IMG/VR virus record: IMGVR_UViG_3300023178_002130
Location: 1-44,924 of that record
Reading direction: 5' to 3' (one strand)
Source of the DNA: a virus
DNA: 44,924 bases
Shown here: piece by piece, positions 5,015-41,131 of the stretch
Numbering within the stretch: position 1 is the stretch's first letter
How the letters are laid out: every line of letters begins with the position of its first letter
The notes under the pieces: model-generated
Databases searched by the model: none
Told to the model about the DNA's origin: nothing
The model's input: only the letters and a program-made list of their open reading frames with translations
Position numbers and translations under genes: made by a program

Positions 5015-5022
5015 GTATTTAT
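5015..5022 (-). promoter_or_regulatory. T4-late-like promoter box
   Basis: Minus-strand CATAAATACTCTATATAGGAG: the ATAAATAC box is followed at about the right distance by a leader holding the AGGAG site of the gene starting at 4995. The same ATAAATACTCTATATA string recurs at 41145-41160. Confidence 0.6.
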
Positions 5023-5061
5023 GTAAATATACAAGCAAATATTTTATTATGGAGAATAATT

Positions 5062-5304: not shown

Positions 5305-5587
5305 TATTTCTAACACTTAGTCTTTCGATAGCAGACTCACAGCGAGCCAGCTTACGCTCTAATACAGTGATAGCGGCTCGCTGTTTTCTTGACTGTTCTT
5401 CCAAACTACGAACATACTGTAAAGTAGGAAGTTCTTGAGTTGAGCCATCTTCTCCCAGCAACACCATAGTATCTACACCTTGGGCTTTTAACCCGCCCGT
5501 TACACGATTAGGATTTTTTGTAGATTCGCTAGATGATGATTGGGTCTGGGCCGGATTTCTTCCGTACATTTTGTTTAAATAGCTCAT
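5294..5587 (-). CDS. Hypothetical protein with C-terminal coiled coil
   Basis: 97 residues. A Ser/Gln/Asn-rich, probably disordered N-terminus (to about 30), a short beta-like middle (TMVLLGEDGSTQELPTLQ), then a heptad-rich helix from about residue 58 to 92 with Leu/Ile spacing that suggests a coiled coil. The middle and coil recall small phage structural or chaperone proteins, but I do not recognise a family. CGGAG lies nine bases before the ATG and a GTAAATAC box precedes it, so late expression is likely. Confidence 0.7.
   Translation of the reverse strand: MSYLNKMYGRNPAQTQSSSSESTKNPNRVTGGLKAQGVDTMVLLGEDGSTQELPTLQYVRSLEEQSRKQRAAITVLERKLARCESAIERLSVRNITS
5339..5390 (+). terminator. Probable intrinsic terminator of the plus-strand Rho-N-like gene
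   Basis: Perfect 10-base inverted repeat ACAGCGAGCC (5339-5348) / GGCTCGCTGT (5375-5384) with a 26-base loop, followed by TTTTCTT. It lies 35 bases past the stop of the plus-strand gene and wholly inside the coding region of the opposing gene. The long loop lowers confidence. Confidence 0.45.
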
Positions 5588-5603
5588 TGTTTATCTCCGT
5601 ACT

Positions 5604-5611
5604 GTATTTAC
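5604..5611 (-). promoter_or_regulatory. T4-late-like promoter box
   Basis: Minus-strand GTAAATAC lies 17 bases before the ATG at 5587, with CGGAG between them. The TAA stop of the upstream oxygenase gene is inside the box. Confidence 0.4.
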
Positions 5612-6321
5612 TCTGCTTGCTCATAGAATTGTGAACGTCTTGGATCATGCTCATATGTTGCATTTGAAGTATAGTAGAATAGTATTAAACTATCTCTAGT
5701 TATTGTTTTTGGACATTCTATAGGTTCGGGATGCCCATGAACTAAATCATAACCATAGTCCCAAAAAATTAATCTATTAGGCTTTGGTGCAATTTTTTTA
5801 ACACATTCTGTTCTTTCATTGTTCCAAAATTCTAAATGTCCATTCCACTCTTCTTTCCAATCTTTGTTAAGATAGAGTATGGCATTCTTTTGTCTATTTA
5901 ATTTAAGACCGTTATTCCAATTAAAGTCTGTATGTAATCCTAATGATGTATTTCTGCTACTTCTACAAAACCCACCGCCTAAGAAGTGAGGATCTGGAAC
6001 AAGAGATTCTGTACCAGTACAAACTTCTAACCAATCTACAAACAATTTACTGTTAAAACTATTTGCAAGGGTTTGTAGTAAAGGCGCCTCAGCAAAGTTT
6101 CTACATTCTCTTCGTTCGCTATACTGATTAGCAAAAATTTTATAGCGTTCTTCCGGGATATCTTCAAATGAATTTATAATAGTATTGTACAACCATGGTG
6201 GCAAAAAGTTGTCTATCATATAAAATGGAGTAGGCTCACCTTTTGCATATTCTGCAAAAATTGTTTCTGGATTGTAAGTTGTACTTAGATCTTGGAAAAA
6301 ATTATATATTTGTTCATGCAT
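5608..6321 (-). CDS. 2OG-Fe(II) oxygenase (prolyl-4-hydroxylase-like)
   Basis: 237 residues with the double-stranded beta-helix signature of Fe(II)/2-oxoglutarate dioxygenases: HTD (His130, Asp132), a distal VHGHP (His195 or His197) and ITRDS with Arg209 as the 2-oxoglutarate ligand. The AILYLN and RLIFWDYG strands fit a prolyl-4-hydroxylase-like subfamily. Such enzymes hydroxylate proteins or nucleobases; the phage substrate is unknown. It is one of four such genes in the window. An ATAAATAG box overlaps the stop of the upstream uvsE gene just before the ATG at 6321, leaving a very short leader. Confidence 0.85.
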   Translation of the reverse strand: MHEQIYNFFQDLSTTYNPETIFAEYAKGEPTPFYMIDNFLPPWLYNTIINSFEDIPEERYKIFANQYSERRECRNFAEAPLLQTLANSFNSKLFVDWLEVCTGTESLVPDPHFLGGGFCRSSRNTSLGLHTDFNWNNGLKLNRQKNAILYLNKDWKEEWNGHLEFWNNERTECVKKIAPKPNRLIFWDYGYDLVHGHPEPIECPKTITRDSLILFYYTSNATYEHDPRRSQFYEQAE

Positions 6322-6325
6322 AAAA

Positions 6326-6333
6326 CTATTTAT
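6326..6333 (-). promoter_or_regulatory. T4-late-like promoter box
   Basis: Minus-strand GCATAAATAG ends only five bases before the ATG at 6321 and contains the TAA stop of uvsE. A transcript from it would be nearly leaderless. Confidence 0.35.
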
Positions 6334-7439
6334 GCATATATTTTTCCTGCGAAGTCTTTTGCCATTGAGTTATAATCTTCTGTTGCTAGACCATATTTGT
6401 ATAGGTCAATACTAGCAAGATTCTTAGACTTAGACTCGACCATAATGTCTGCGTAATCTAAAAATTCTAATGCCCAGTCGTTAACAGCATTATTCCACAT
6501 AAAGTCAGAATGTGCTCTAAGTTTTTGCTTCTTAAAGCCTTGCTCTAATAGCGAATCCATATTAGGTAAAGAGTTATCATCATGGTCTACTAGTAGATCT
6601 TCGCGTGAAACTGAGTAATGAATAACAGGTCTTACTCCACGCCAACTGTCAACTATACGTAAAAATCTATCGTCGGTGGGCGATATGTATTCTCCACTAG
6701 CAACCCAGTGGTGGTGTATGTCCAATACGAGAGCGACATGCTTTTCAAGTTCGAGGCTTGCGTCAATGCCCCAAGACATTTCGTCGTTTTCGATTGTGAT
6801 TGCGTTTCGCGCTTCTGGCGAGAGTCTCGGTAAGACGTCGATGATGCCTTGTGGACCTTTTCGACCCGATATGTGTACGTTGCATTTAAAGTCTTGGAAG
6901 GTGCGGCCGTATCCCATCCAGCGCAAGACATCGGTGTGATATTCAAATTCTTCTATGCTCCTCTCAACAATTTCCGGATTATCCGAGGCAAGTACAGTAA
7001 ATTGTCCCGGATGCATTGATAGTCGGACGTCAAGGGCTCTTGCGGTTTCTCCAACTTTTGCGAATTCTTTTTCACAGTATGCAACCACATCCGGCTTGCG
7101 CCAAAAATAACACCAAGTAGGCTCGGTATAAACAGGAAGTACATCACTACCCAATCTGACCATTCTAAGTTGAGGGGGAAGACTTCCAACATATTCAATC
7201 AACCTTCTGTATGACGCTATGTTGTGGACCATAATGTCCCACAAGCGTTCTTCAGCAACATCACGTGTTTGCCTATTGAGCCACGCAACTGTTGTGCTAC
7301 GAGTATTTAGTGGTCGCTGTATCTCCTCAAGCAATTTCTTCTTCTGTGTTTGATCAGGATACATGTATTTGCATGCAAAACCTATGCGTTTTTGTTGTGC
7401 TTTCAAAAAGTCACCTGCTGTTGTAAATTTTAAATCCAT
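6330..7439 (-). CDS. uvsE: UV-damage endonuclease UvsE/UVDE
   Basis: 369-residue TIM-barrel nuclease that nicks DNA 5' of UV photoproducts using metal ions, starting an alternative excision repair. Family segments are clear: MHPGQFTVLAS, NVHISGRKG, TIENDEMSW, LVLDIHHHW and HYSVSRED followed by AHSDFMW. The His, Glu and Asp residues in these segments are the metal ligands. The ATG at 7439 is chosen because it overlaps the stop of the upstream gene (TAATG) and gives MDLKF; an eight-residue upstream extension would lie inside that gene. Fits a phage exposed to surface sunlight. Confidence 0.95.
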   Translation of the reverse strand: MDLKFTTAGDFLKAQQKRIGFACKYMYPDQTQKKKLLEEIQRPLNTRSTTVAWLNRQTRDVAEERLWDIMVHNIASYRRLIEYVGSLPPQLRMVRLGSDVLPVYTEPTWCYFWRKPDVVAYCEKEFAKVGETARALDVRLSMHPGQFTVLASDNPEIVERSIEEFEYHTDVLRWMGYGRTFQDFKCNVHISGRKGPQGIIDVLPRLSPEARNAITIENDEMSWGIDASLELEKHVALVLDIHHHWVASGEYISPTDDRFLRIVDSWRGVRPVIHYSVSREDLLVDHDDNSLPNMDSLLEQGFKKQKLRAHSDFMWNNAVNDWALEFLDYADIMVESKSKNLASIDLYKYGLATEDYNSMAKDFAGKIYA

Positions 7440-8158
7440 TATATTTCTTCTAGTAATTGCCACGTTTCTTTATAATCTTTAACATTATAACACATACCTA
7501 AGTCACTGTCAATGATCTGTTTTTTAAGAGGATAATCATTTCCTGCTTTATCCATCCTATCACCAAAAAAGTGTAATTCATCATTTATATCAAAGTCGTG
7601 TAGTATTTGACTTTTATCACTACCCTTGAGTCCAATATCAATACCTGTTTCTCCTCCAGGTCTTGCTTCTAACTCTGGAAAGAGCAAATTAAACTTTCCA
7701 GCTATTTTATTTCTTTCGTTATGTTCGAGATCATATTTTACATACAATTTGCGTTCGCCCAGTGTAGCATTGCGCCCAACTACGCTGTAATTTGTCATTC
7801 CGTGTCTATGTTCAAAATGTAGCCCAGTTCTTAACGGAAAAGCACTACTAGTGAGCTCAATCGACAACCATTCGTGTGCATCTTCTGGTAATGTCCATTC
7901 GGAGTGTTTAATATTAACTTTGCCTTCCCAAACATCATTACCGTTACATTGATAAACACGTTTGCACAAGTTATAAGTTGGTTCTGTAATCTGTTCTATA
8001 GTTTTAGGTTTATCACTACCTGTTACAAGATATACGTCATTGACCATAGAGAACGCATTAAAGAATGCTCTAAAGTCATAGTCCATTCTACCTCTGCTAG
8101 GAGTCAATGTTCCGTCTACATCAAATATATATTTTATCGCCAATTTTCTACTACCCAT
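7439..8158 (-). CDS. Eukaryotic-type phosphomannomutase-like HAD phosphatase
   Basis: 239 residues of the HAD IIB/PMM family. FDVDGTLTPSRG (Asp13, Asp15) is the nucleophile loop, YSVVGRNA and DIGLKGSDKSQIL are the cap and substrate-binding segments, and FFGDRMDKAGNDYPL carries the acidic metal site. PMM converts mannose-6-phosphate to mannose-1-phosphate, which feeds GDP-sugar synthesis. The start at 8158 gives the usual N-terminus and overlaps the glycosyltransferase gene by 25 bases; a TTG six codons on is the alternative. Its place between a glycosyltransferase and a repair gene suggests sugar metabolism, perhaps capsid or surface glycans, but this is inference. Confidence 0.85.
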   Translation of the reverse strand: MGSRKLAIKYIFDVDGTLTPSRGRMDYDFRAFFNAFSMVNDVYLVTGSDKPKTIEQITEPTYNLCKRVYQCNGNDVWEGKVNIKHSEWTLPEDAHEWLSIELTSSAFPLRTGLHFEHRHGMTNYSVVGRNATLGERKLYVKYDLEHNERNKIAGKFNLLFPELEARPGGETGIDIGLKGSDKSQILHDFDINDELHFFGDRMDKAGNDYPLKKQIIDSDLGMCYNVKDYKETWQLLEEI

Positions 8159-8943
8159 GGATCTTTGCAATGTTCTGGATTTGGATCTCCGTGGAAAACA
8201 CACACGCAACATTCTATTCGAGGTACACAGTTTTCCACTACCTTAAATGTTCTTTTTCCTCTGACGCCGCCTGGTTCAAAATCTCTACTTTGTCTTACTT
8301 CCCATTTCCAACTTTGTGTCCAACTATCTGGATATAACATTGCGGCTTTTTCTTTATGTGTTACATCATACAAGTAGTCTTGATCACCAAAGAACAGTTT
8401 TTGATATTTTTCTGGATCTTGTTTATACTTGTCCCAAACAAACCCCAGTTCTCCTGTTTTAAACTTTATAACCGAACTGTTATACTTTTGATAACTAGGA
8501 CGCATAGCTCGAGTGTAGTCTTTTACAATGCACCAATGATTAGGTTGCCAAGTTAATAACTTATCTATATTACCGCTTATAACAACATCTAAATCTAAGT
8601 ACAGTATAGTTCCTTTAATGGGAAGATCTTTAGAAAACATATAAGGCTTGCACCACCACCCATGTAAGCCTTTTGGTAAGTTGAGTATTTGTATGTTAGG
8701 ATCTAACCCCATTGGATCGTCTGTAAGACATGCAAACTTATAGTCTAACGTACAATTACGTTTTACCATATTATACAATTTGTTTACATAATCTGCAGAA
8801 TATTTTGTGCCATGTTTAAGACATAACACAAAATAATCCTGCGGAAGTGTAGAAATAAGTTTACTAGCCTTTGCTTCTCTGCGTTCGGCCTTAATCTTTA
8901 ACCATTCTTCCTTAGTGTATTGACTCTTATCAATCTTTGCCAT
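8134..8943 (-). CDS. GT-A-fold glycosyltransferase-like protein
   Basis: 269 residues. The DxD motif in LYLDLDVVISGNIDKLL (about residues 145-160) is the metal/nucleotide-sugar site of GT-A enzymes, similar to family 8-like transferases. The FACLTDDP and GDQDYLYD segments fit that fold, and the C-terminal CVCVFHGDPNPEHC is His/Cys-rich. The start at 8943 (MAKIDKSQ) overlaps the queD stop by 14 bases; the longer frame has no support. Sugar donor and acceptor are unknown. Adjacent PMM-like and sugar-related genes suggest one pathway. Confidence 0.75.
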   Translation of the reverse strand: MAKIDKSQYTKEEWLKIKAERREAKASKLISTLPQDYFVLCLKHGTKYSADYVNKLYNMVKRNCTLDYKFACLTDDPMGLDPNIQILNLPKGLHGWWCKPYMFSKDLPIKGTILYLDLDVVISGNIDKLLTWQPNHWCIVKDYTRAMRPSYQKYNSSVIKFKTGELGFVWDKYKQDPEKYQKLFFGDQDYLYDVTHKEKAAMLYPDSWTQSWKWEVRQSRDFEPGGVRGKRTFKVVENCVPRIECCVCVFHGDPNPEHCKDPWVVENWR

Positions 8944-10075: not shown

Positions 10076-10083
10076 TTATTTAT
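10076..10083 (-). promoter_or_regulatory. T4-late-like promoter box
   Basis: Minus-strand AATAAATAATTG, with the stop of the upstream membrane-protein gene inside it, ends just before the ATG at 10071. Weak candidate. Confidence 0.3.
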
Positions 10084-10387
10084 TGTTGTTTATATCTTCT
10101 TTTAAGACAGTAATGTCTTGCTTAACTTCTTTAAATTTTTCAGCCGCTTGAGACATTAATTCAACAACAGAGGAAATTTTATCTATTGCCCACCACCACC
10201 AAATTGCGGCGACGAACATAAAAGTACAAGTGCCTGTTAAAATAAGCCAATAATATGTTTCATGAGCTCCTAGCCAATACGAAATCGCTAGAGCTATAAA
10301 GCCTGTCATGGGAAGTACACTGCCTATTATTTTCCAAATAAGTGCCTGTTTTTTAGTTTGTTTTTTTAATAAGTCAAAGTTAGTCAT
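10076..10387 (-). CDS. Two-span membrane protein with C-terminal coiled coil
   Basis: 103 residues. Hydrophobic spans at about 18-38 (IIGSVLPMTGFIALAISYW) and 44-66 (YYWLILTGTCTFMFVAAIW, then a WWWW run), then a charged helix (about 68-100) with heptad spacing. A holin- or spanin-accessory role is possible from topology only. A TATAAATA box at 10393-10400 immediately precedes the ATG, so late expression is likely. No family recognised. Confidence 0.7.
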   Translation of the reverse strand: MTNFDLLKKQTKKQALIWKIIGSVLPMTGFIALAISYWLGAHETYYWLILTGTCTFMFVAAIWWWWAIDKISSVVELMSQAAEKFKEVKQDITVLKEDINNNK

Positions 10388-10392: not shown

Positions 10393-10400
10393 TATTTATA
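10393..10400 (-). promoter_or_regulatory. T4-late-like promoter box
   Basis: Minus-strand CTATAAATATTAGTATG: a full TATAAATA box five bases before the ATG at 10387. Nearly the same string (CTAAATATTAGTATG) precedes the plus-strand gene at 32435. Confidence 0.6.
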
Positions 10401-11567: not shown

Positions 11568-11575
11568 GTATTTAT
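11568..11575 (-). promoter_or_regulatory. T4-late-like promoter box
   Basis: Minus-strand GATAAATACTTACATG, four bases before the ATG of the fibre gene. The upstream gene's TGA stop overlaps its first bases. Confidence 0.5.
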
Positions 11576-12867
11576 CAGTTTACTTTAAGAAGCACTGTAT
11601 CCGGATTACAACGTCCGTTTAGTTTTGTATCAGTAGTTTTTATCTCCTCTAGAAACTTGCGTAATGCTACTTTACCTGCATTTTTAAACTCTTTTAGTTG
11701 TTCTTCTGGCTTACGTAGCGTCTTTTGAATACTTTCTTTTTCGTCAAACCCTATTATTGTTGTGCCTTTAACACTAAGTCCAGTACCGTCTCTAGCAAGA
11801 CCTTTTGGATCTATATTTGATGCAACATATTTGCCTAGTTTACGTGTCTTACTGTTAAACACCCACAGCTCACTAGCACCTACAATAAGTGTAGGATCAA
11901 TACTTGCAAGTGAATACTTGTCATCTGCTTTGTTAAACTTCAACTTCTCTACAATTTTACTTGCAGATCGTTGCTTAGGCTTACGTGGTTTACGTGTTGC
12001 CTTAGCTTGCTCAATAATAAAGTCTAGCTCTGCATTCACGGTTTCGATTGCTTTGCGATATTTTGCAATATCAGATTTTTTGTGATCTGCGTAACCTTCT
12101 TTTAGTTGTTCCCACATATCTCTTTCGTGTTCGTCCATTTTTGCCAACTGTCCTTTTGTTGGCATTCTTTCTAGGTCGTCAAAGTCTACTAGTTCCGACT
12201 CCCAAAAAGATTTCATTTTGCGAGCGTGAGCTTGACTTGGTTGAACTTTTTTAAAATATGCTTTAAAGTCAAACCCTTTTGGGTCAAACAACTTTGGGTC
12301 TTGTACCCAAACTTCCAACCATTCGTCAATTGGTTCAGACATATCATATGCCTGGTCTCTTATACGTTCTTGTATTGTAGGAACGTAGACGTTTGCTTTT
12401 GCTTTTTCTTCTTTTGTTTTAACTTGAACAGCCTTTGAGCCACCTTCAATGTAAGTTTCAATTCGTTTTTTAAGGAATTCGCTAGGACCTTTCTTAGGAC
12501 CCATTGTGCCAGCAAGACTTTGCCAATGCTCATCTTCTCTCTTTACATAGTCAGGAGCACCATCTAAAAATGATTGTGCAACAATAGCACTTGTAATACT
12601 GATGTAAGTATTAGGCATTGCCTTTGCGTGTTTTATTTGTTCTTTAGTATATTCTCCGCTTGCTTCCATCCATTTGAATATACTAGGATACAAATCAGCT
12701 GGCTTATAATTTTCATAGTAAAAAGATCTTACATATTCTCTATGACGGTGAATCTGTTCACCCGTCCATTCTTCCCAGCCATCCCAACTAGGCGCTGTAA
12801 GTTTAGCACCGCGTTTTAGACGAGGAGCCGCTCTAGGTTTTTTTCTTTTAGTCTTCGGCAGGGCCAT
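11575..12867 (-). CDS. Conserved-looking phage protein, unknown function
   Basis: 430 residues, Lys/Arg-rich (very basic first 25 residues, KTKRKKPRAAPRLKRG) with long helical stretches. The C-terminal third (about 310-430) has beta-type segments such as ELWVFNSKTRKLGKYVAS and a GLSVKGTTIIGFDE unit. It looks like large hypothetical proteins of marine T4-like phages; a nucleic-acid-binding role is suggested only by charge. GGAG lies seven bases before the ATG and a sigma-70-type promoter at 12897-12925. Confidence 0.75.
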   Translation of the reverse strand: MALPKTKRKKPRAAPRLKRGAKLTAPSWDGWEEWTGEQIHRHREYVRSFYYENYKPADLYPSIFKWMEASGEYTKEQIKHAKAMPNTYISITSAIVAQSFLDGAPDYVKREDEHWQSLAGTMGPKKGPSEFLKKRIETYIEGGSKAVQVKTKEEKAKANVYVPTIQERIRDQAYDMSEPIDEWLEVWVQDPKLFDPKGFDFKAYFKKVQPSQAHARKMKSFWESELVDFDDLERMPTKGQLAKMDEHERDMWEQLKEGYADHKKSDIAKYRKAIETVNAELDFIIEQAKATRKPRKPKQRSASKIVEKLKFNKADDKYSLASIDPTLIVGASELWVFNSKTRKLGKYVASNIDPKGLARDGTGLSVKGTTIIGFDEKESIQKTLRKPEEQLKEFKNAGKVALRKFLEEIKTTDTKLNGRCNPDTVLLKVN

Positions 12868-16574: not shown

Positions 16575-16650
16575 TGGTGGAGCCGACAGGGGTCGAACCT
16601 GCGACCTACTGGATGCAAACCAGTCGCTCTCCCAACTGAGCTACGGCCCC
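16575..16650 (-). tRNA. tRNA-Ala (TGC)
   Basis: 76 bases with encoded CCA (16575-16577). Seven-pair acceptor (one G-U), a TTTGCAT anticodon loop, GTTCGAC T-loop and a normal D arm. Confidence 0.97.
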
Positions 16651-16652
16651 TA

Positions 16653-16787
16653 TCATAGATATTTACCTACCAAAAAACCTAAAAGAAATATGAACCAATC
16701 AAATACAAAATGCATCAGAAACGAAATTGCAAAAATTTCTTTCCAGTGTACTTTACAGATATCTAACCATTCTGCTATCTTTTTCAT
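16653..16787 (-). CDS. Small membrane protein, 44 aa
   Basis: Begins MKKIAEWLDICKVHWKE and continues as one hydrophobic helix of about 25 residues (FAISFLMHFVFDWF then a Leu/Phe-rich end). AGGAAG lies before the ATG at 16787. It sits alone between tRNA-Thr and tRNA-Ala, with only two bases to the tRNA-Ala end. Clear amphipathic start and single span; function unknown. Confidence 0.7.
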   Translation of the reverse strand: MKKIAEWLDICKVHWKEIFAISFLMHFVFDWFIFLLGFLVGKYL

Positions 16788-16802
16788 ACTTCTTCCTATA
16801 AA

Positions 16803-16878
16803 TGGTGCCGGATGTCGGATTCGAACTGACGACCTACTGATTACAAATCAGTTGCTCTACCAACTGAGCTAATCCGGC
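16803..16878 (-). tRNA. tRNA-Thr (TGT)
   Basis: 76 bases with encoded CCA. GCCGGAT/ATCCGGC acceptor, TTTGTAA anticodon loop, GTTCGAA T-loop. Confidence 0.97.
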
Positions 16879-16883
16879 GTAAC

Positions 16884-17246
16884 TTACTCTACATTACTTA
16901 GTGGTGTATCTTCTTCCAAATCATCAAACTTGGTTTTGACAAAATCTGATGCAATCATTTTTACATCTTTTCCAGACGCTCTCATTTCCATTTCAGCCTC
17001 GAAGACTTTCTTTAAACTTCCGGGCCCTTCCCAAATATCGTTCATAACTTCGTTGATTTGATCTAACGACACTCTTCGAATTCTTGCTTGACCAAAATAA
17101 TGTTGCAAAAAACCAATTAAAGCTTCTGGAATTAATCTATGGTCTGAAAAAGCCCATGTACCATTAAAACCATTTACTGAATAAGGGTTGTCGATATCTT
17201 TGTTGTGAAACTTCATTCTATCTTCAACTGATCTTAATTCTAACAT
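16884..17246 (-). CDS. Hypothetical protein
   Basis: 120 residues, mixed alpha, charged, no membrane segment; central AFSDHRLIPEALIGFLQHYFGQ and an acidic tail. TAGGAG lies before the ATG at 17246. It has its own sigma-70-type promoter (17270-17297) and sits inside the tRNA cluster, so it and the two downstream tRNAs may share a transcript. Family not recognised. Confidence 0.7.
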   Translation of the reverse strand: MLELRSVEDRMKFHNKDIDNPYSVNGFNGTWAFSDHRLIPEALIGFLQHYFGQARIRRVSLDQINEVMNDIWEGPGSLKKVFEAEMEMRASGKDVKMIASDFVKTKFDDLEEDTPLSNVE

Positions 17247-17269
17247 ACATACTCCTAATTAAAAAACAC

Positions 17270-17297
17270 ATTATAACACATATTTTGTCAATGTCAA
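17270..17297 (-). promoter_or_regulatory. Sigma-70-type promoter
   Basis: Minus strand: GG then TTGACA (17292-17297), 16-base spacer, TATAAT (17270-17275). A second TTGACA overlaps the spacer (17286-17291) but is too close to use. Confidence 0.8.
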
Positions 17298-17302
17298 CCA
17301 TT

Positions 17303-17376
17303 TGGAGCGGGATACGGGAATCGAACCCGTCTCGTCAGCTTGGAAGGCTGTCATAATACCACTATACCAATCCCGC
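17303..17376 (-). tRNA. tRNA-Gly (TCC)
   Basis: 74 bases with encoded CCA. GCGGGAT/ATCCCGC acceptor, CTTCCAA anticodon loop. Confidence 0.97.
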
Positions 17377-17380
17377 AATC

Positions 17381-17470
17381 TGGCGGAGAGTGAGGGATTC
17401 GAACCCTCGATACAGTTGCCCGTATAACACCTTAGCAGGGTGCCGCTTTCGACCACTCAGCCAACTCTCC
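17381..17470 (-). tRNA. tRNA-Ser (GCT)
   Basis: 90 bases with encoded CCA and a long variable arm as expected for Ser. GGAGAGT/ACTCTCC acceptor, CTGCTAA anticodon loop. Confidence 0.96.
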
Positions 17471-17473
17471 TAA

Positions 17474-17535
17474 AGTATACACTCCCAGTTTATCAGTCTG
17501 TTGCAAGTTGCTATACTTCCTGCAGAGTGTATACT
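17474..17535 (-). repeat. 11-base perfect inverted repeat in the Ser/Glu tRNA spacer
   Basis: AGTATACACTC (17474-17484) pairs perfectly with GAGTGTATACT (17525-17535), with 40 bases between them. In the precursor RNA this could fold into a long-looped hairpin spanning almost the whole spacer between the two tRNAs. There is no U-run, so it does not look like a terminator. Processing signal or small RNA are the options. Confidence 0.5.
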
Positions 17536-17539
17536 ATCT

Positions 17540-17614
17540 TGGTAGCCCGTAGGAGAATCGAACTCCTGTTGCATGGATGAAAACCATGTGTCCTAACCAC
17601 TAGACGAACGGGCC
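17540..17614 (-). tRNA. tRNA-Glu (TTC)
   Basis: 75 bases with encoded CCA. GGCCCGT acceptor, TTTTCAT anticodon loop, GTTCGAT T-loop. Confidence 0.96.
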
Positions 17615-17624
17615 ATAATTTTTT

Positions 17625-17698
17625 TGGCAGGCGAACAAGGAATCGAACCTCAGTTTACAGTTTTGGAGACTGTCGTGTTACCACTACACCATTCACCC
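17625..17698 (-). tRNA. tRNA-Trp (CCA)
   Basis: 74 bases with encoded CCA. ACAGT-CTCCAAA-ACTGT anticodon arm; acceptor GGGTGAA/TTCGCCT with one G-U pair at the end. First tRNA after the promoter at 17709-17737. Confidence 0.93.
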
Positions 17699-30397: not shown

Positions 30398-30474
30398 TGG
30401 CGCGGCTGAAGAGATTCGAACTCCTGACCCTTGGTTTCGTAGACCAATGCTCTATCCAGCTGAGCTACAGCCGC
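30398..30474 (-). tRNA. tRNA-Arg (ACG)
   Basis: 77 bases with encoded CCA. GCGGCTG/CAGCCGC acceptor, TTGGT-CTACGAA-ACCAA anticodon arm, GTTCGAA T-loop. Just 12 bases after its promoter. Confidence 0.95.
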
Positions 30475-32629: not shown

Positions 32630-32908
32630 ATGGAGTTTTTAAAATTAGTAGGCGAAGTAGGTTTTCCTATCGCAGGTGCTCTTGCATCAGGCCTATTTGT
32701 TTTTATTACACTTAGATTTATTTTAGACAGTGTTACGGGTTCTGTAAATGGTTTAAAAGGCATGATTAGTGCTTTAGATAACCGTGTGCAAACTATGAAC
32801 AACGATCTAGTTAAAATAGATACACTTATGAGCTATGCACTTAGCGTAAAACCAAATGTAGATAGAATCGCCGCTAATGAAGGCAAAGAGGACGCAAGGA
32901 GAGATTAA
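32630..32908 (+). CDS. Membrane protein of the GFPI pair (A), holin-like
   Basis: 92 residues. An N-terminal VGEVGFPIAGALASGLFVF span (about residues 7-30), then a helix with SALDNRVQTMNNDLVKIDTLM. The order, a GFP motif in a membrane span followed by a short DN-containing helix, is repeated in the protein at 33123-33503. It looks like BhlA/holin-type small phage membrane proteins by topology; the role is not established. AGAGGG precedes the ATG. Confidence 0.7.
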   Translation: MEFLKLVGEVGFPIAGALASGLFVFITLRFILDSVTGSVNGLKGMISALDNRVQTMNNDLVKIDTLMSYALSVKPNVDRIAANEGKEDARRD

Positions 32909-33133
32909 ATGTTATGGGTAGACTATAATATAGAACAGGGGTCAAACGGTAGTTTTACTATAAGAGGTGAATGGCCCGGTGAAGTTATGGGCAAAGCGCA
33001 AGATGGTTCACCAAAAGACCATTACCTTTACAAACCTGGTGATGTTTTTATAGTAAATGAAGCAGGTTGGTTAGTTAGAGTAGACCAACTTACTAGCATG
33101 GTAATAGGACACGAGCATAAGGATGAGTTCTAG
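32909..33133 (+). CDS. Hypothetical small protein in the GFPI cassette
   Basis: 74 residues, beta-rich and soluble (SFTIRGEWPGEVMGKAQDG; KPGDVFIVNEAGWLVRVDQL). Starts one base after the stop of the first membrane gene and overlaps the second by 11 bases, so all three are translated in series. Not recognised. Confidence 0.7.
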   Translation: MLWVDYNIEQGSNGSFTIRGEWPGEVMGKAQDGSPKDHYLYKPGDVFIVNEAGWLVRVDQLTSMVIGHEHKDEF

Positions 33134-33503
33134 TATAGTAGAAGCAATTAATCAATATGGTTTTCCAATCATTGCTGCCATGGGTCTTGGTTATTTTGTC
33201 TTTTACGTTTGGAAATGGGTTACTACTGAAATCAAACCAGTATTAGGTGAAGCTAGTAGTACATTAATTGCTCTTATTGACAGAATTCGTATGTTAGACA
33301 ATGATATGATTCGTTTAACACAAAAAATTAATATGGTTTTAGAATTCAAAGAGCAATATGAAAAAATTACAGGTAAAAGTTTAGACTTAGATGTAAGCGA
33401 AATAGAAGAAATTATAGATAAGGATTATAAAAATGTTTCAACAGAGCAAGTGGAGCAAGTGGTACGAAAGCCAAAACGAAACAACAAAAACGTGGCTAGA
33501 TAA
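33123..33503 (+). CDS. Membrane protein of the GFPI pair (B), holin-like
   Basis: 126 residues. INQYGFPIIAAMGLGYFVFYV (about 9-29) is the membrane span, then a helix with LIDRIRMLDNDMIRLTQKINMVL, parallel to the protein at 32630. A longer acidic then basic tail ends RKPKRNNKNVAR. Likely a paralogue or hetero-oligomer partner; a channel or holin role is inference. Confidence 0.7.
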   Translation: MSSSIVEAINQYGFPIIAAMGLGYFVFYVWKWVTTEIKPVLGEASSTLIALIDRIRMLDNDMIRLTQKINMVLEFKEQYEKITGKSLDLDVSEIEEIIDKDYKNVSTEQVEQVVRKPKRNNKNVAR

Positions 33504-33600
33504 TCAAGCTATATGGCATGACAAAGATATGGTAATATCTGGTTGTGTTGGTTTTGTAATTGGTGTACTGTTTGGAATAGTTATTTCGTTGTCGCTATAA
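33433..33600 (+). CDS. Small single-span membrane protein overlapping gene B, 55 aa
   Basis: Begins MFQQSKWSKWYESQNETTK and ends in one span (VISGCVGFVIGVLFGIVISL, then SL). It starts 71 bases inside the 3' end of the previous gene in another frame and overlaps the opposing cyclase gene by 20 bases. The Trp-rich head and clean C-terminal span look real; it lacks a strong ribosome site. Confidence 0.55.
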   Translation: MFQQSKWSKWYESQNETTKTWLDNQAIWHDKDMVISGCVGFVIGVLFGIVISLSL

Positions 33601-35632
33601 AGACGCCGTTCCAATCTTTAGGTAGGTCTTGAGTTTTCATATACTCGCAACGTTCTATCCACATTTTATAGTAACCTTCCATTTTAGCATCAAAGTGTCT
33701 TTTTAATCTCTCACAAATCCAAATTGCTTCATCAAACTTTTGAGCTCTATATGCTTCATGCATTCTATCATGCATTTCCTTGCTTTTAAGCTGTGCAGGT
33801 GTTCCTTTTAAATCTAGAACAGTATGTATTCCTATACCTACACTTTTTCCTTTTACAGCAAGATCATCTACTTTCAAAAAGAACCAATCTTTTTTGCACT
33901 GTTTAACTGTTGCTTCTCCAACAAGTAACAAGCATCCGTACTCTTTACATTTGGATTCAATTCTAGCCGCTGTTGAAACTGAATCTCCTAAAACATCATA
34001 AGAATGTCGCTTTGTACTACCCATTTCGCCAAGGTAACCCAAGCCGCTATTAATGCCAGCACCCATACCGATGGGAGGTCTACCTTCTTCTTTGAGCGTT
34101 TCATTAAATTTCTCCACAGCCTTTAACATGCGTAATCCTGTATCCACGGCTGTATCTGGATGATCAGGATCGTCAGTTGGTGCATTATGAACGTGCATAC
34201 TTGCGTCACCGATATATTTGATAACCATACCATTTGAATCAAGTATAGGCTGTGTAATAGCGTCCATGTAGCCATTCATTATTTGTGTTAAGCCTTTTAC
34301 ATCATCTCCAAAACTTTCACCTAATGGTGTAAAGCCACGCAAGTCCGAAAAGCAAATACTAATCTCACGCTTCATACCGTCTTTAATAAGTGCAGGATTT
34401 TCTTGTAGCATACGCACTACAGTTGGAGATGCATATCCTGCAAATTGTTTTTTAATTGCTTGCTTTTGAAAATACTCTGATGTAAATCTATTGAATACAG
34501 CATGTAAACTTACTAGTACAAACGCTAATATAGGCATTGTTACATCTAGTAAGTATAAGTACTCTTGCCACGCATATAAAGCGCCGTACGCTAGTCCTCC
34601 TGCAACTACTAGTATAGTTATACCTACAGCCCAAAAAGGCGCAAGCGTAGCAACTACAATAGCAAGTAAACTTACTACCGCTGTTGTTGCTAATTCTGCT
34701 AGATCAGACCAAAATGGTCTTTGTATTTGGTCGCCATCTAATACAGTTTGTAGTGTTACAGCAGCAGGTATGTAATTATATTGTGGTCCTGTAGGACTTG
34801 CAATAAAGCCACCTAATCCTTCTGCTGTTAATCCTAACACAACCGTGCGACCAGCAAACTGACTATAGTCGTCACTGGCCGCACTAATCGTGTCAAACTT
34901 TTTATTCCAACGTAACCAAATTTGCCCGTTAGGATCTGTGCTGATTATAGGATATCCAGGTACCCTAACTTTTTCAACACCACCTTCATTTGCCTTTATT
35001 TGATATGAAGGTGCCTGTGTGGCAAGTCTAATTACCTCTACAGCGAGTGACGGATACGTATCTTCTCCAATACGCATAATCAAGGGTACTCGGCGTACTA
35101 CACCATCCACCTCAGGTGCTGTATTTAAAACGCCCACACCCCCGGCATTTTGACCTAGTAGAGGAATAGGGCCCAACATGCCTGGCCATTCAAACAGAAA
35201 TGGCAATGGGTCGCCTATTTTAGCAACTCCGCGAGGAACGGAATTTTTGTTGACAGATGTAGTTCCTGTTTGTGCAATAACTACACCATTATCTGCAAGT
35301 GCATCGGCTAATACTTCGTCTCCACCTAGTCTATCAGGTTCTGAGAAAAGTATAGGTATTACAATAATACCTGCACCTGCTTCTCGAAGCTTCCAGATTA
35401 TATCTGCTAAGACATCTCGCTTCCAAGGCCATTGACCGTACTTTTCAATAGCGGCTTCGTCAATAGCAACAATGCCAATATCTTGGGAGGTAGTTGGCTG
35501 ATCTGTGTTTTGAAGTAGATCAAATTGCTTCAGCCGAGCTGTTTCCACTATAGTGCTATTCCCATAGTGTAACATAAAAATTACAAGGGCCGTAATAATA
35601 CTTACAGACCAATGTGTGATCCACTTGCTCAT
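33581..35632 (-). CDS. CHASE2-domain class III nucleotide cyclase
   Basis: 683 residues. An N-terminal membrane helix (about 8-24), an extracytoplasmic CHASE2 sensor (about 30-300; GIVAIDEAAIEKYGQWPW, GVGVLNTAPEVDGVVRR), three membrane spans (about 313-380), then a class III cyclase domain. Metal Asp430 (FSDLRGFT) and Asp476 (YIGDAS) are present; Lys472 and Asp546 fit adenine specificity; Arg557 is kept, but the usual Asn of GDxVN is Ser553 (GDSVSTAAR). A TPR-like helical tail follows. It would make cAMP in response to a periplasmic signal if active. A TATAAATACG box sits directly before the ATG. Confidence 0.92.
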   Translation of the reverse strand: MSKWITHWSVSIITALVIFMLHYGNSTIVETARLKQFDLLQNTDQPTTSQDIGIVAIDEAAIEKYGQWPWKRDVLADIIWKLREAGAGIIVIPILFSEPDRLGGDEVLADALADNGVVIAQTGTTSVNKNSVPRGVAKIGDPLPFLFEWPGMLGPIPLLGQNAGGVGVLNTAPEVDGVVRRVPLIMRIGEDTYPSLAVEVIRLATQAPSYQIKANEGGVEKVRVPGYPIISTDPNGQIWLRWNKKFDTISAASDDYSQFAGRTVVLGLTAEGLGGFIASPTGPQYNYIPAAVTLQTVLDGDQIQRPFWSDLAELATTAVVSLLAIVVATLAPFWAVGITILVVAGGLAYGALYAWQEYLYLLDVTMPILAFVLVSLHAVFNRFTSEYFQKQAIKKQFAGYASPTVVRMLQENPALIKDGMKREISICFSDLRGFTPLGESFGDDVKGLTQIMNGYMDAITQPILDSNGMVIKYIGDASMHVHNAPTDDPDHPDTAVDTGLRMLKAVEKFNETLKEEGRPPIGMGAGINSGLGYLGEMGSTKRHSYDVLGDSVSTAARIESKCKEYGCLLLVGEATVKQCKKDWFFLKVDDLAVKGKSVGIGIHTVLDLKGTPAQLKSKEMHDRMHEAYRAQKFDEAIWICERLKRHFDAKMEGYYKMWIERCEYMKTQDLPKDWNGVFIATTK

Positions 35633-35635
35633 AAC

Positions 35636-35644
35636 GTATTTATA
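35636..35644 (-). promoter_or_regulatory. T4-late-like promoter box of the cyclase gene
   Basis: Minus-strand TATAAATACGTTATG, a complete late box four bases before the start codon. The TAA stop of the 34-aa upstream gene lies within it. The transcript would be leaderless or nearly so. Confidence 0.55.
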
Positions 35645-36042: not shown

Positions 36043-36050
36043 GTATTTAT
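36043..36050 (-). promoter_or_regulatory. T4-late-like promoter box
   Basis: Minus-strand AATAAATACAGCATG before the ATG at 36039, just past the stop of the 34-aa gene. Confidence 0.45.
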
Positions 36051-36051
36051 T

Positions 36052-36180: not shown

Positions 36181-36849
36181 TTAGTTGTTTCTGTTTACAA
36201 TTACTGTGCAACCATTTGCGTTTGCACAATAACCAGTTATACTAAAACTATCAGCACTTGTAGTAACATTTTGAGTAAGAGTGTAGTTGTATGCTCCACC
36301 CGAGTTTGTTAAATCTATTGCGGCGCTTGCTGAGTTACTTCCTCGTTGATTTACGTCTACACTGTGTCCGTCACCTGTAAGAACTATGTCTGCCCATTTT
36401 TGTCCACCATTACCTCGTTGGTATAAATCTACTGTATTAGAATCGCCTTGTATTTCTATGAATCCGTCGTGTCCTGCCTTGCCCATCTGAATGTGTTCTA
36501 CTGTATTACTGTCACCATTTACTATATTTGCTAAATGATGTGGTGATCCTCCTCCTCCGTCTCTGTTGGTGTCTGTTTGATAACTGGCTACTGTGTTTCC
36601 ATCTCCAGTCACAGTCCAGTATGCTTCGTGTCCGCCAGTTTCGTCTCCGTCATAGGTGTTATCGTCGTGTATGCCTTGACGTATAGTAATATTATTGTTT
36701 GGACCTGTAGAATTTAAACTTATGTAGTTGTCTTCGCTACGTTGTTGTATTTCTAAATTAAGATTATCACCACTTTGTGTAATATAGATTTCATTTGCAA
36801 ACGCAGCTTGTGTTAAAAGTATTGTAAATATTCCTAAATAATATTTCAT
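36181..36849 (-). CDS. Curlin-like secreted amyloid protein (B)
   Basis: 222 residues. Signal peptide (KYYLGIFTILLTQAAFA, cleavage near residue 18), then ITQSGDNLNLEIQQ, an almost exact match to the start of the other curlin. Repeats of GD(S/G)NTV...QxG type follow at about 18-25 residue spacing (TGDGNTVASYQ, NGDSNTVEHIQMG, QGDSNTVDLYQRG, TGDGHSVDVNQRG). Such Asn/Gln repeats stack as beta-helical amyloid in CsgA/CsgB. Starts by ATGA overlap with the FecR-like gene. A secretion partner (CsgG/CsgF) is encoded in the same run. Confidence 0.85.
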   Translation of the reverse strand: MKYYLGIFTILLTQAAFANEIYITQSGDNLNLEIQQRSEDNYISLNSTGPNNNITIRQGIHDDNTYDGDETGGHEAYWTVTGDGNTVASYQTDTNRDGGGGSPHHLANIVNGDSNTVEHIQMGKAGHDGFIEIQGDSNTVDLYQRGNGGQKWADIVLTGDGHSVDVNQRGSNSASAAIDLTNSGGAYNYTLTQNVTTSADSFSITGYCANANGCTVIVNRNN

Positions 36850-37994
36850 TGGTTTTGTTGTATGTCAATCTCATTAGACCCTGCACCCACTCTATAATCT
36901 AATATTGACTCTCCTTGTTGTTCCATTGTTATTATATAACCATATTCTTGGTTTAATCTTAATTGCAAATAATTTGTTAATCCTGCATCTGATCTTGATA
37001 CAAAATAGTTTGGGTCTTCTTTTTCAAATGTAATTCTAGTTTCAGGATCGTACCCAAATTTTTGTTCTGCAAAAAATTGTTCTGTTTGTATATCTAATTC
37101 ATTCCTAAATAATTGAGCTAATTGTGCATTTAGTTGATCAATCATATCATGTAATAATTCGCCTAAATAGTAATCAGTACCTCGCATTAAATCAGTTACC
37201 CAAATATCTTTTATGCTATCATTTAATGCGTCTGCGTCAAGATCATCAAACTCTAAATAATCGATATCTAAAAATTCAAATTGTTCTCGTTGTTTTTTTG
37301 CTAGTTCAAGCTCTTCCTCATCATAAGGAGAACGCTTTCTTAGTATTAACAATGTGCCAATTTGTTTTTCGTCTAAATCTAGTATAAGTGGTTTTGTAGG
37401 TGCTTGATAAGAAGTTTTTATCTGTGTAGTTTGGAAGGCCTGATTCATAATAACAAAACCTGTATCACTTTCAACAGATATTTCTCCTGTTACACACACT
37501 CCATCCTCGTCACAACTAGGCAACAGTGTTACCATGGTTCCGCCAATTTCATCTACTAACATGATAAAGTCAGTTCCCCTAACACCAATAGTGGCACTAG
37601 GGGTTCTGATTTTTACATTTTGTTGATATCGTTTTGCTATCTGCCCACTTGCATAACGTACTGTTCCTAATGATGCTTTTAAACTTATAGAACCTACATT
37701 ATTTGAAGGATCATATACAAATTCATCAATTAGTAATCTACTATGCTCTGTAAGATCGACTCTAGTTTCATCAACGAAATCTATTCTCATAGTTCCTTTT
37801 GCTGTAACAGCCGTATCCATACTTTGGACATTAACTCCAGTGTCACCTGGAATAACCTGATTCTCCCTTTCTAGTACACCAGAACCCTTTATTTCGCCTA
37901 TTGAACCTGCATCAGGCACGGCAAAAGCCGGCAAACTAGAAAGTGCCAGTATGACAAATACTGTTCTATTAATCAGATTGCGTAATGTCAACAT
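36846..37994 (-). CDS. FecR-domain secreted protein
   Basis: 382 residues, start at 37994 chosen because it opens a signal peptide (FVILALSSLPAFA, cleavage near 25); the longer frame begins with TTG inside the curlin gene. The FecR domain spans about residues 30-200: GSIGEIKGSGVLERE, MDTAVTAKGTMRIDF, ASLGTVRYASG and KIRTPSATIGVRGTDF. The remainder is acidic and helical with an elongated tail. FecR domains here are probably cell-surface or fibre-binding rather than iron signalling. It sits between two curlin genes in the same transcript. Confidence 0.85.
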   Translation of the reverse strand: MLTLRNLINRTVFVILALSSLPAFAVPDAGSIGEIKGSGVLERENQVIPGDTGVNVQSMDTAVTAKGTMRIDFVDETRVDLTEHSRLLIDEFVYDPSNNVGSISLKASLGTVRYASGQIAKRYQQNVKIRTPSATIGVRGTDFIMLVDEIGGTMVTLLPSCDEDGVCVTGEISVESDTGFVIMNQAFQTTQIKTSYQAPTKPLILDLDEKQIGTLLILRKRSPYDEEELELAKKQREQFEFLDIDYLEFDDLDADALNDSIKDIWVTDLMRGTDYYLGELLHDMIDQLNAQLAQLFRNELDIQTEQFFAEQKFGYDPETRITFEKEDPNYFVSRSDAGLTNYLQLRLNQEYGYIITMEQQGESILDYRVGAGSNEIDIQQNQ

Positions 37995-38670
37995 CTTGAT
38001 TGTCGCCACTAAATGTTGCTTCAATTACATTATCACCTAAACCACTTTGAGTAATATCATAAGTACTGCCGCCGCCTGTTACATCAAGGTTAATAGTGTG
38101 ACCATTAATATCGCCGTCACCATCTACATCAATTGTAAAAGTATTTCCTGTGGCTGCTAAACTTGCTGAATTATCACTTACAAGTGTAAGTGCTACACTT
38201 GCACCGTCTACGTTTGTAGTTATAGTGTTTCCATCGCCGTCAATAGTAAAGTTTGCTACTAGGTTTTGTGCATCTGCACTTTCACCAATGTAAATGTTAA
38301 ATGCATTACTATCGCCGTTTGTTGTGATATTTGCTGTAACAGTTTCACAGTTTGTTCCGCTTGTTTGGTCACAAGACATATCAACTGTATTGCTGTTACC
38401 TATGAAACTCCAAGTACCAGTGTAAGTATTGCCTTTGATGTTAGCAGCTATCGTGTTAGAATCACCTTGCTGGGTAATACTAAAAGTCATGTCATCACCA
38501 TCAAGGTTAACATCTGTAGTAGAGTTACCTATCTGGTTATTAGAACCATCCTGTACAATATCTAAGTCTAAGTTATCTCCAACTTGCGTTATATAGATAT
38601 CGTTAGCAAAAGATGGTGCTGCTACCATTAAAAGCCCGACTATCGCTGTGCTTTTAATTATGTTTTTCAT
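37969..38670 (-). CDS. Curlin-like secreted amyloid protein (A)
   Basis: 233 residues. Signal peptide (TAIVGLLMVAAPSFA), then IYITQVGDNLDLDIVQDG, paralleling curlin B. Repeats such as QQGDSNTIAAN, IGNSNTVDMS, NGDSNAFNIYIG and DGDGNTITTNV, and a C-terminal GLGDNVIEATFSGDNQDVDITQ. One Cys pair (CDQTSGTNC). GAGGG lies seven bases before the ATG. It probably builds the fibre with curlin B. Confidence 0.85.
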   Translation of the reverse strand: MKNIIKSTAIVGLLMVAAPSFANDIYITQVGDNLDLDIVQDGSNNQIGNSTTDVNLDGDDMTFSITQQGDSNTIAANIKGNTYTGTWSFIGNSNTVDMSCDQTSGTNCETVTANITTNGDSNAFNIYIGESADAQNLVANFTIDGDGNTITTNVDGASVALTLVSDNSASLAATGNTFTIDVDGDGDINGHTINLDVTGGGSTYDITQSGLGDNVIEATFSGDNQDVDITQSD

Positions 38671-38673: not shown

Positions 38674-39546
38674 TTAGCCCTCTTCTGAAACTTCCGTATC
38701 AGTTATATTTGTTTGTTCATCTGTTGTTTCAGAAGTCGTTTCTTGTACAAATTTCCATAAACCATTACGTTCGCCCTCGTAAATAAGTTCAATAACACCT
38801 TGTTCAACCGCCGCTCTCACAGCATAGTTGACTGGCTCGTTTACTGAAAATCCTGCTTCTGTTTCAACTAATCTAGTTCCCATATCAAGGAACTTGAATA
38901 TGTCCGCTCCGGATCTATAGCTTGCGATTGTTTTTTCTGTCGCAATGCTCATTAACACTTTCCCTGTGCTAACGCTTACAAGACGCATTACAACAGTTAC
39001 CGTATCAACACGATATTCTGTTTGTAATCCTATCCCTAGATATCTTGCGCCTGCACCTCCGACTGCCGTATTACTGTCGTAACCAACAATGCCACCCTCA
39101 AGTATTAAACCTGCAAATAACATCGGCTTTAAAGGTGTAGGTCCATTTGGAAGTTCTCTTTCATAAACTTCTCTTGTTTGCCTAATCAATTGCCTTTCTT
39201 TAATTAAATTGTCCATGCCTACACGTTCAACAACTTCAAACCATGTCGAGTTGCCAACGTCTTGTAGTGCCTTAATTACCCAAACTTCGCTTCCTTGTGT
39301 AACAGCACTACTTAAACTGGCTACCATGTCTGATGGTTTTCTCTGTCCTGTTTTATCACTAAACTGATATACAGCAATAGTAATTTTAGGCCCATCGAGG
39401 TTTGGTACGTCTTCTAATCTGTCTTGTACAGGACTATCCTGTATTTTAGGCGATGTAGCATGATCCTCCAGTATCTGTAAGGCCGGAGTCATAGCACATC
39501 CTCCTAAAAGAAGTGTTAAAAGAAATATGATGCCTGCTAGTCTCAA
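38674..39546 (-). CDS. csgG: CsgG-like outer-membrane secretion channel lipoprotein
   Basis: 290 residues. Signal peptide with lipobox LLGGC (Cys17), then the CsgG body: ITIAVYQFSDKTGQRK, SSAVTQGSEVWVIKALQD, WFEVVERVGMDNLIKERQLIR and GGIVGYDSNTAVGGAGARYLGIG, with MRLVSVSTGKVL near the end. CsgG is the nonameric channel that exports curlins. The start is TTG at 39546, overlapping the csgF stop (TTGA) with GGGGAG upstream. The C-terminal 25 residues are Thr/Glu-rich and unlike E. coli. Confidence 0.93.
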   Translation of the reverse strand: MRLAGIIFLLTLLLGGCAMTPALQILEDHATSPKIQDSPVQDRLEDVPNLDGPKITIAVYQFSDKTGQRKPSDMVASLSSAVTQGSEVWVIKALQDVGNSTWFEVVERVGMDNLIKERQLIRQTREVYERELPNGPTPLKPMLFAGLILEGGIVGYDSNTAVGGAGARYLGIGLQTEYRVDTVTVVMRLVSVSTGKVLMSIATEKTIASYRSGADIFKFLDMGTRLVETEAGFSVNEPVNYAVRAAVEQGVIELIYEGERNGLWKFVQETTSETTDEQTNITDTEVSEEG

Positions 39547-40013
39547 AAGTTAAACTCCCCTAATCCGGGAATTGTAATTTCTGTAACTGACCCATCTTCT
39601 CCAGTAATAGTAAGTGTAATACTTCCTGTTACTGTATCTTTAATCCATGAAATAGTATTACCTTCTACTTCTGCCGTACCTGTATTAGCACAGGTATCAC
39701 CGCAATCGGCAAACATCGCATCGACCATCTGTTTAGATAGTGTTGCATATATTCTACTTTCTAAATTTCTAATGAATTTGTTTAGGACGGAATTTTCAAG
39801 TTCTCGTTCAATACGAGCTGCTTCTGCTTCTGCTTCTTTTCTTAGCTCTTGTTTTCTATTGTGTTGAAGTTGCTCCACACTTAAAACATGAGTAGAGTAG
39901 CCGTTACCATAATGGAAAGCAGGGTTCTTGAATTTCCAGGTTAGTTCTGTTGCACCCACTGGGGAAAATCCTATTAGTGTTCCTAAAAGTGCAAATTGAA
40001 TAAGTTTTTTCAT
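39543..40013 (-). CDS. csgF: CsgF-like curli assembly factor
   Basis: 156 residues. Signal peptide (IQFALLGTLIGFSPVGA), then TWKFKNPAFHYGNGYSTHVL, the CsgF N-terminal segment that plugs the CsgG pore. GGAG lies five bases before the ATG at 40013. A helical middle (EAEAARIERELENS) and a beta C-terminal segment (NTISWIKDTVTGSITLTI) follow; a Cys pair (CGDTC) is unusual. First gene of the curli run after a late-type promoter. Confidence 0.88.
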   Translation of the reverse strand: MKKLIQFALLGTLIGFSPVGATELTWKFKNPAFHYGNGYSTHVLSVEQLQHNRKQELRKEAEAEAARIERELENSVLNKFIRNLESRIYATLSKQMVDAMFADCGDTCANTGTAEVEGNTISWIKDTVTGSITLTITGEDGSVTEITIPGLGEFNF

Positions 40014-40057
40014 ACATACTCCGTTGCGAACGCCCTCACGCTCTGTTAACATTACTA

Positions 40058-40075
40058 CCGTATATATTTATACGG
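40058..40075 (-). promoter_or_regulatory. T4-late-like promoter of the curli locus inside a palindrome
   Basis: CCGTATA-TATT-TATACGG is a perfect seven-base inverted repeat (40058-40075) that contains the minus-strand TATAAATA box (40065-40072). Both a promoter box and an operator-type palindrome therefore coincide, 45 bases before csgF. Confidence 0.6.
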
Positions 40076-40090: not shown

Positions 40091-41131
40091 TTATCTACTT
40101 TTAGATAAAATGCCTACTTGTGCTTGTCCTTGACTACGTGAATCACTGTCTATAAGTGGTAGTGAAAAACTAAGTCTGTTTAATATTGGGTCAAGGTTGT
40201 CTACGTCGAAGTATAAACTTGCTCTTATATTTTTTTGTAGGATTAAGAAGTGTTCGTCTCCTTGTGATACACCATAGTTCTTTACAGCTAATTTTACTAG
40301 GTCTGCGGCTGTTACATTGGTTCCTAGTTTTCCTACTTTAATGGCAAGTGGTTGAGCATCAGGGGCTTTGAATATTGCAGATATAATCTTAACAGATTCA
40401 TCTGGTCCTAATCCGTTTGCTTCTAAGAATTGTGCATAGTTGTTTGCATTGATTTTGTTTACTTTTGCTAGTTCTGCACCTTTTACTGGATCATTTGGAA
40501 ATAGACTAGACCAAAACTCTTTGTTTCCGTGTAACATTCCAAGTGTACCTTTTGTAGGTGATAGTCTACCACCTGAACTTGTCATGCCGGCTTTGACTTC
40601 TACTGGAGTTCCGTCTACGTCAATATCGCCCTTTGCGCCTTTTAATCTAATTCTAGGACTTAGGATTGCGAGTGCAAATTCTCCTGGTCCTTTGTTGTCT
40701 TGTCTAAACGGAGCAAAGTTAAACATAGTATCAAATAGTCGTTGACTAAATGGTGTTCCTGTTAACCAATCACTCCAGCCTGACAATGGTTGCATAAGTG
40801 CCCGTGTATCGATATGATCTGCTTGTCCTAAAGTTTTAGCAAATGCAATTTTTTCTTCTACTGTTCCTTCAGTCTTATCTATTGCGTCAACTAACCCCTC
40901 AAGAAAGCCTGCACCATAGGTTTGATCATCTTCTGGTTTTGTATTTTCAGGACGTAGTGCGGCAACTATTCTACTTTCAAGGCCGCCATCGTCTGCTGAC
41001 ACTTTTGTACTAATGACTTTCCATAGCTCGTCAACAACCGCTGGATCTGCTTGCATCTTATCATAGATGCGTTGCATTTTCCTTACTTGATCACGATTGT
41101 TTTCTACTAATCTAAAGTCTTTAAAGCGCAT
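40091..41131 (-). CDS. Phage protein with PD-(D/E)XK-like nuclease motif
   Basis: 346 residues beginning MRFKDFRLVEN, a start I have seen in marine T4-like phages. The central GEFALAILSPRIRLKGAKGD and VDGTPVEVKAG give Glu151, Asp169/Asp171 and Glu178-x-Lys180, the spacing of a PD-(D/E)XK nuclease. The rest is helical. Possibly a DNA-processing or packaging-linked nuclease, or a structural protein with a degenerate fold. Late box GATAAATAC lies just before the start. Confidence 0.65.
   Translation of the reverse strand: MRFKDFRLVENNRDQVRKMQRIYDKMQADPAVVDELWKVISTKVSADDGGLESRIVAALRPENTKPEDDQTYGAGFLEGLVDAIDKTEGTVEEKIAFAKTLGQADHIDTRALMQPLSGWSDWLTGTPFSQRLFDTMFNFAPFRQDNKGPGEFALAILSPRIRLKGAKGDIDVDGTPVEVKAGMTSSGGRLSPTKGTLGMLHGNKEFWSSLFPNDPVKGAELAKVNKINANNYAQFLEANGLGPDESVKIISAIFKAPDAQPLAIKVGKLGTNVTAADLVKLAVKNYGVSQGDEHFLILQKNIRASLYFDVDNLDPILNRLSFSLPLIDSDSRSQGQAQVGILSKSR

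Follow-up and report, generated by a model that had tools for sequence, protein, structure and literature searches.

The window analyzed here, a whole stretch of 44,924 nucleotides from a marine phage, encodes a CHASE2-membrane-class III adenylyl cyclase in which two active-site residues differ as a pair from those of most relatives: Asp546 stands where sister CHASE2 cyclases carry Ser or Thr, and Ser553 stands at the position usually held by Asn. On the evidence of the sequence tree, the two substitutions arose together, once, in the ancestor of a phage clade to which SAR116 bacteria also belong. We consider it probable that this phage gene encodes a working membrane adenylyl cyclase whose active site has been rewired and compensated, and the likeliest effect of such an enzyme would be changed host cAMP. 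What is new here is the Asp...Ser pairing in the active site, with its one-time origin and its conservation, together with the exchange of sensors and the promoter arrangement.

Domain architecture and the Asp...Ser pair

The cyclase ORF occupies exactly 33581–35632(-), is intact with no internal stop, encodes 683 residues and matches phrog_35576 over its full length; no family for it was found in NCBIfam. Pfam profile searches and the structural model described below place the CHASE2 extracytoplasmic sensor and the start of the membrane helices at residues 14–325 (34658–35593(-); PF05226, E 9e-42) and the class III catalytic domain at residues 421–597 (33842–34372(-); PF00211 Guanylate_cyc, E 1e-15, 58 bits vs a cut-off of 21.9). 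Both Pfam matches are far beyond chance. The AlphaFold2 model, built from a 34-sequence alignment (mean pLDDT 87.7), comprises an N-terminal helix, the CHASE2 fold, three more membrane-type helices (309–330, 333–358 and 365–397), the cyclase fold and, at the C terminus, a helical tail; the hydrophobic windows of the sequence fall at 309–354 and 358–381. CHASE2 sensor proteins have this layout, with three membrane helices after the CHASE2 domain. Superposition of the modeled catalytic part on P. aeruginosa CyaB gave Z 26.5 and 1.7 Å over 189 residues, and the values for Rv1900c and Ma1120 were Z 22.1 and Z 21.5, respectively. The intact ORF, the two Pfam domains and the confident model bear out the sensor-membrane-cyclase architecture proposed in the initial annotation of this DNA.

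Alignment with relatives identified Asp430 and Asp476 as the metal-binding residues and Arg557 as the transition-state Arg which, together with the Guanylate_cyc fold and profile, are the features of a class III nucleotide cyclase. The base-specifying residues are Lys472 and Asp546 (33995–33997(-)), a Lys and Asp combination of the ATP type. The position of the transition-state Asn, a residue that is usual and not universal, is occupied by Ser553 (33974–33976(-)), as seen in both the alignment and the codons. These assignments agree with the residue claims made earlier for both metal Asp, Lys472, Asp546, Arg557 and the Ser in place of Asn. Both metal Asp, the Lys and the Arg are invariant across the relatives where aligned; Asp546 is itself a change.

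The Asn position holds Ser in 76 of 80 virus relatives and Asn in 3, and the remaining one is a fragment that does not cover it. In a sample of 267 non-redundant catalytic domains from virus, bacterial and further phage sequences, the two positions were occupied by Asp...Ser in 63 domains, Ser...Asn in 160, Thr...Asn in 35 and Arg...Asn in 4, with Thr...Thr (3), Ser...Gly (1) and Asn...Asn (1) rarer; the mixed pairs Asp...Asn and Ser/Thr...Ser were found in none of the 267. The Asp...Ser sequences form a single clade (SH-aLRT 99) inside which three SAR116 bacterial genes are nested. All 63 members of the clade carry Asp...Ser, as against 195 relatives with Ser/Thr...Asn, a coupling across sequences that does not count as independent evidence of compensation because the paired change is one retained event and not many.

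Ser553 is kept in all 56 unique phage domains of the clade, where it is encoded by AGY in 40 and by TCN in 16; the use of both serine codon boxes is also seen at other invariant serines of the domain. The median dN/dS of the clade's phage catalytic domains was 0.056, which indicates strong purifying selection. A further coupling with position 556, Ala or Ser (AAR vs ASR), was rejected as unspecific, since AAR is also common in Ser/Thr...Asn cyclases. Another group lacking the Asn is represented by three bacterial CHASE2 cyclases (L193, L195 and L206) with Thr...Thr at the coupled positions.

Characterized cyclases indicate that a missing Asn is no sign of inactivity. Ma1120 of M. avium is active with Lys, Asp and Ala at the equivalent positions, and changing its Ala to Asn cost activity (PMC4215837). 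Rv1900c has His at the Asn position, and several established cyclases are without the Asn (PMC4886424). Furthermore, the hydrogen bond between Asn and the sugar is absent in several nucleotide-bound cyclase structures (PMC7384201). The Asn has been called “essential” on the basis of mammalian work, according to the title of a reference cited in PMC4215837; its tolerated absence from Ma1120 and Rv1900c means that it is not a strict mark of class III membership. These two mycobacterial class III enzymes are structurally like the window cyclase (Z about 22) and also lack the Asn, but they have no CHASE2 sensor and carry Ala or His, not Ser. Ma1120 also keeps the Lys and Asp, with identical 7- and 4-residue spacings (D157, A164, R168).

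Phage relatives, the curli module and late-promoter motifs

At least 400 virus contig stretches in IMG/VR encode a relative of the cyclase, and a virus contig of 99.6 kb carries the window cyclase, 100% identical, with its neighbors. The genes before the cyclase in the window encode, in order, CsgF (39543–40052(-); PF10614), CsgG (38674–39546(-); PF03783), a CsgA/B-like curlin-repeat protein (37969–38670(-); a weak PF07012 match, with an annotated curlin repeat protein in the same place in phage Melnitz), an exported FecR-domain protein (36846–38024(-) from the longest-ORF start, the true start being probably further in; PF04773, phrog_37870) and a second CsgA/B-like curlin-repeat protein (36181–36849(-); PF07012). 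These are the features of the phage curli (T8SS) module, and the available passages of Wittmers et al. 2022 describe these genes in this order, FecR and the adenylate cyclase among them, with a tree of the cyclase and metatranscriptome expression of the module (PMC9599517). Phage CsgF and CsgG had been reported earlier (PMC7029224, PMC9004378). The module itself is therefore known; the same passages of PMC9599517 contain nothing on the active-site pair, CHASE2 sensor exchange or a promoter.

Among the related loci, 53 extend far enough upstream to show the gene order, and 50 of these have CsgF-CsgG-CsgA/B-FecR-cyclase. So do two cultured phages, Melnitz, which infects OM43, and HTVC008M, which infects Pelagibacter. 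In two loci, the curli block has the opposite orientation with respect to the cyclase. A search for csgG beside the cyclase in other phages, which had been proposed as a check, thus found this adjacency conserved. The recurrence of the same neighbors in these contigs and in both cultured phages leaves an annotation or assembly artefact, in which a bacterial gene was joined to a phage contig, to all intents ruled out, and nothing was found in its favor.

Just past the cyclase, on the opposite strand, the window encodes two small paralogous phrog_18771 proteins (32630–33503(+)), which are found beside the module in most relatives. Just upstream of csgF lies an ORF of 346 residues (40091–41131(-)) for which no Pfam, PHROG or NCBIfam family was found; it is weakly similar (26–35%) to ORFs of some relatives and occupies the place of a histidine kinase in published podophage modules. 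Seven tRNA genes (Ala, Thr, Gly, Ser, Glu, Trp and Arg) are located at 16575–17698(-) and 30398–30474(-).

The Melnitz cyclase (QZI94387; MZ577095, a Methylophilales phage of an OM43 methylotroph) is 64.7% identical to the window cyclase over its full length, has the Asp...Ser pair, and follows a module in the window's order, CsgF-CsgG-curlin-FecR-curlin-cyclase; it is preceded by NATAAATA 5 bp before its ATG, and the Melnitz paper does not mention it. The HTVC008M cyclase (YP_007517885, Pelagibacter phage) shares the module and the CHASE2-type sensor with the window, but its identity is 46.5%, it is about 70 residues shorter and it has the canonical Ser...Asn pair. Thus, both pair types serve in the same module.

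Among the phage relatives, the catalytic domain is better conserved than the sensor. Seven loci have a CHASE2 domain 34–38% identical to that of the window and a catalytic domain 75–88% identical, and three others show the opposite arrangement, with 64–76% identity in CHASE2 and 45–51% in the catalytic domain. These figures suggest that recombination has swapped sensor and enzyme domains. The interchange of sensors above a near-constant catalytic domain suggests variable input and fixed output.

A T4-type late-promoter-like motif, TATAAATA, lies 4 bp before the cyclase ATG (35637–35644(-)), and the same motif precedes csgF (40065–40072(-)), where it probably marks the start of the curli/FecR transcript. 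Simply counted, TATAAATA is no more frequent in the window than chance predicts (4 vs 5.9 expected), and only its position relative to start codons stands out. Across 80 phage loci, the T4-type core NATAAATA was found 4–5 bp before the ATG in 40 of 983 upstreams, compared with about 1 for scrambled motifs, and at this spacing it was found in none of 461 bacterial control upstreams. Of 58 unique cyclase upstreams, 26 contain it (2 expected), as do 12 of 35 CsgF upstreams (1 expected), and it is hardly ever seen before the CsgG, FecR or curlin genes. HTVC008M has it 5 bp before the genes annotated as tail tape measure, DNA end protector, baseplate tail tube cap, CsgF and 2OG-Fe oxygenase; the HTVC008M genes with the motif are mostly late structural genes. 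To judge from the motif, the cyclase probably has a NATAAATA promoter to itself and is expressed late, on a separate transcript.

In the window, NATAAATA occurs exactly 4–5 bp before the ATG in 6 of 48 ORF upstreams, and the motif sites are 35637–35644(-), 11569–11576(-), 10393–10400(-), 10077–10084(-), 6327–6334(-), 36044–36051(-) and 4124–4131(+); this spacing is also seen in the HTVC008M and Melnitz loci. In T4, the +1 position follows the late-promoter core by about 6 nt, so that a motif 4–5 bp before the ATG would give leaderless mRNAs. The arrangement suggests that late mRNAs are leaderless in these phages. A previous study of pelagimyophages reported failing to find any late promoters (PMC7029224).

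Bacterial relatives and the cAMP receiver

In 38 bacterial genomes, which were chosen for close cyclase relatives and so do not constitute a survey, a FecR domain was located within 5 kb of 22 of 57 CHASE2-cyclase sites, compared with 0.66 expected. Bacterial CHASE2 cyclases partner FecR more generally, which makes FecR a candidate input no weaker than the fibers; CHASE2 may sense the envelope or neighboring fibers, as proposed initially. The SAR116 CHASE2 cyclase resembles that of the window in its domains, in its Asp...Ser pair and in the adjoining FecR gene, which follows it, but the two are 31% identical overall, and the genes before it in SAR116 encode a cNMP-binding/HlyD protein and a peptidase-C39 ABC exporter instead of curli proteins. 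In the apparent SAR116 operon (L086, positions 1–8688, and L087), genes for a repetitive protein, the exporter, the cNMP-binding-domain/HlyD fusion, the CHASE2 cyclase and FecR stand together, which suggests a cyclic-nucleotide-controlled (gated) type I secretion unit.

Besides SAR116, a genome scan with the A1 profile returned mostly phage contigs binned in MAGs (L082–L085), and the Asp...Ser codon pattern matched 1 of 385 alphaproteobacterial genomes, namely the SAR116 centre genome. A search of 18 phage records, several of them fragments and among them the complete Melnitz and HTVC008M, found no cNMP-binding protein; the receiver of the signal would therefore be a host protein. Searching the literature for a cAMP receptor of Pelagibacter brought no useful result, and the host receiver step is the weakest link of the cAMP-signaling interpretation.

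Proposed mechanism and alternatives

In the mechanism we favor, the protein would act as a homodimer whose CHASE2 domains read a periplasmic signal, such as envelope state, FecR or curli subunits, and whose cytoplasmic catalytic domains then turn ATP to cAMP in the infected cell. The enzyme would act at a late stage of infection, alongside the curli-secretion genes. Ser553 would be no lesion and would form one half of the active site, with Asp546 as its partner.

The initial annotation had read Ser553 as pointing to reduced activity or a decoy. A cyclase with little or no catalytic activity, retained for sensing, as a scaffold or as a decoy that binds nucleotides, would fit the conservation of the Asn in most class III cyclases. 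However, the Ser is fixed in the clade and coupled to Asp546, the metal, Lys, Asp and Arg positions are all kept, the catalytic domain is under strong purifying selection and is more conserved than the sensor, and active Asn-less enzymes are proven. On these grounds we do not uphold that claim, and we regard such a protein as unlikely. The case against it does not come from Ser being common in proven active cyclases: our literature search found no assayed cyclase with Ser at the Asn position. We give a small but real chance to an active cyclase with an altered product or relaxed specificity (cGMP, cCMP, cUMP or several), which might, for example, jam or feed the host cyclic-nucleotide system. 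The residues nearest the base and ribose changed together, the Asn-less Rv1900c is described as producing both cAMP and cGMP (PMC4886424), and the catalytic domain matches Pycsar cyclase models (E 1e-15). Lys472 and Asp546 are nevertheless the classical ATP-specifying pair under the Lys and Asp/Thr rule of adenylyl cyclases (PMC7384201); the Pycsar (PycC) profile matches span the shared class III core only. A PycC is marked by a pyrimidine-type active site and an adjacent Pycsar effector; the window enzyme keeps the purine pair, and the neighbors to which names could be given belong to the curli and FecR genes.

A neutral passenger of a curli/FecR module acquired from an alphaproteobacterium, functionless in the phage, is highly unlikely given that the gene is kept in hundreds of contigs with dN/dS about 0.06, has its own promoter-like motif and shows repeated replacement of the sensor or catalytic domain; in its favor, CHASE2 cyclases and FecR adjoin in bacteria too, and the published trees of PMC9599517 give the module an alphaproteobacterial origin. 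There is also a small chance that the Asp...Ser cyclases, evolved or spread in marine phages, make up a functional subclass of their own, with a rewired active site that alters the product, for example to some cyclic nucleotide instead of cAMP, or the regulation, for example so that the enzyme works only when its sensor is triggered. Such enzymes might respond to the envelope with a signal late in infection and thereby set the time of curli secretion or lysis.

Under the functional, compensated cyclase that we favor, the Asp...Ser change would be a natural example of class III cyclases dispensing with a supposedly catalytic residue, and it would correct the reflex of calling such a protein a dead enzyme. 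A phage-installed transmembrane cAMP synthase would rewire second-messenger signaling in some of the most abundant bacteria of the ocean.
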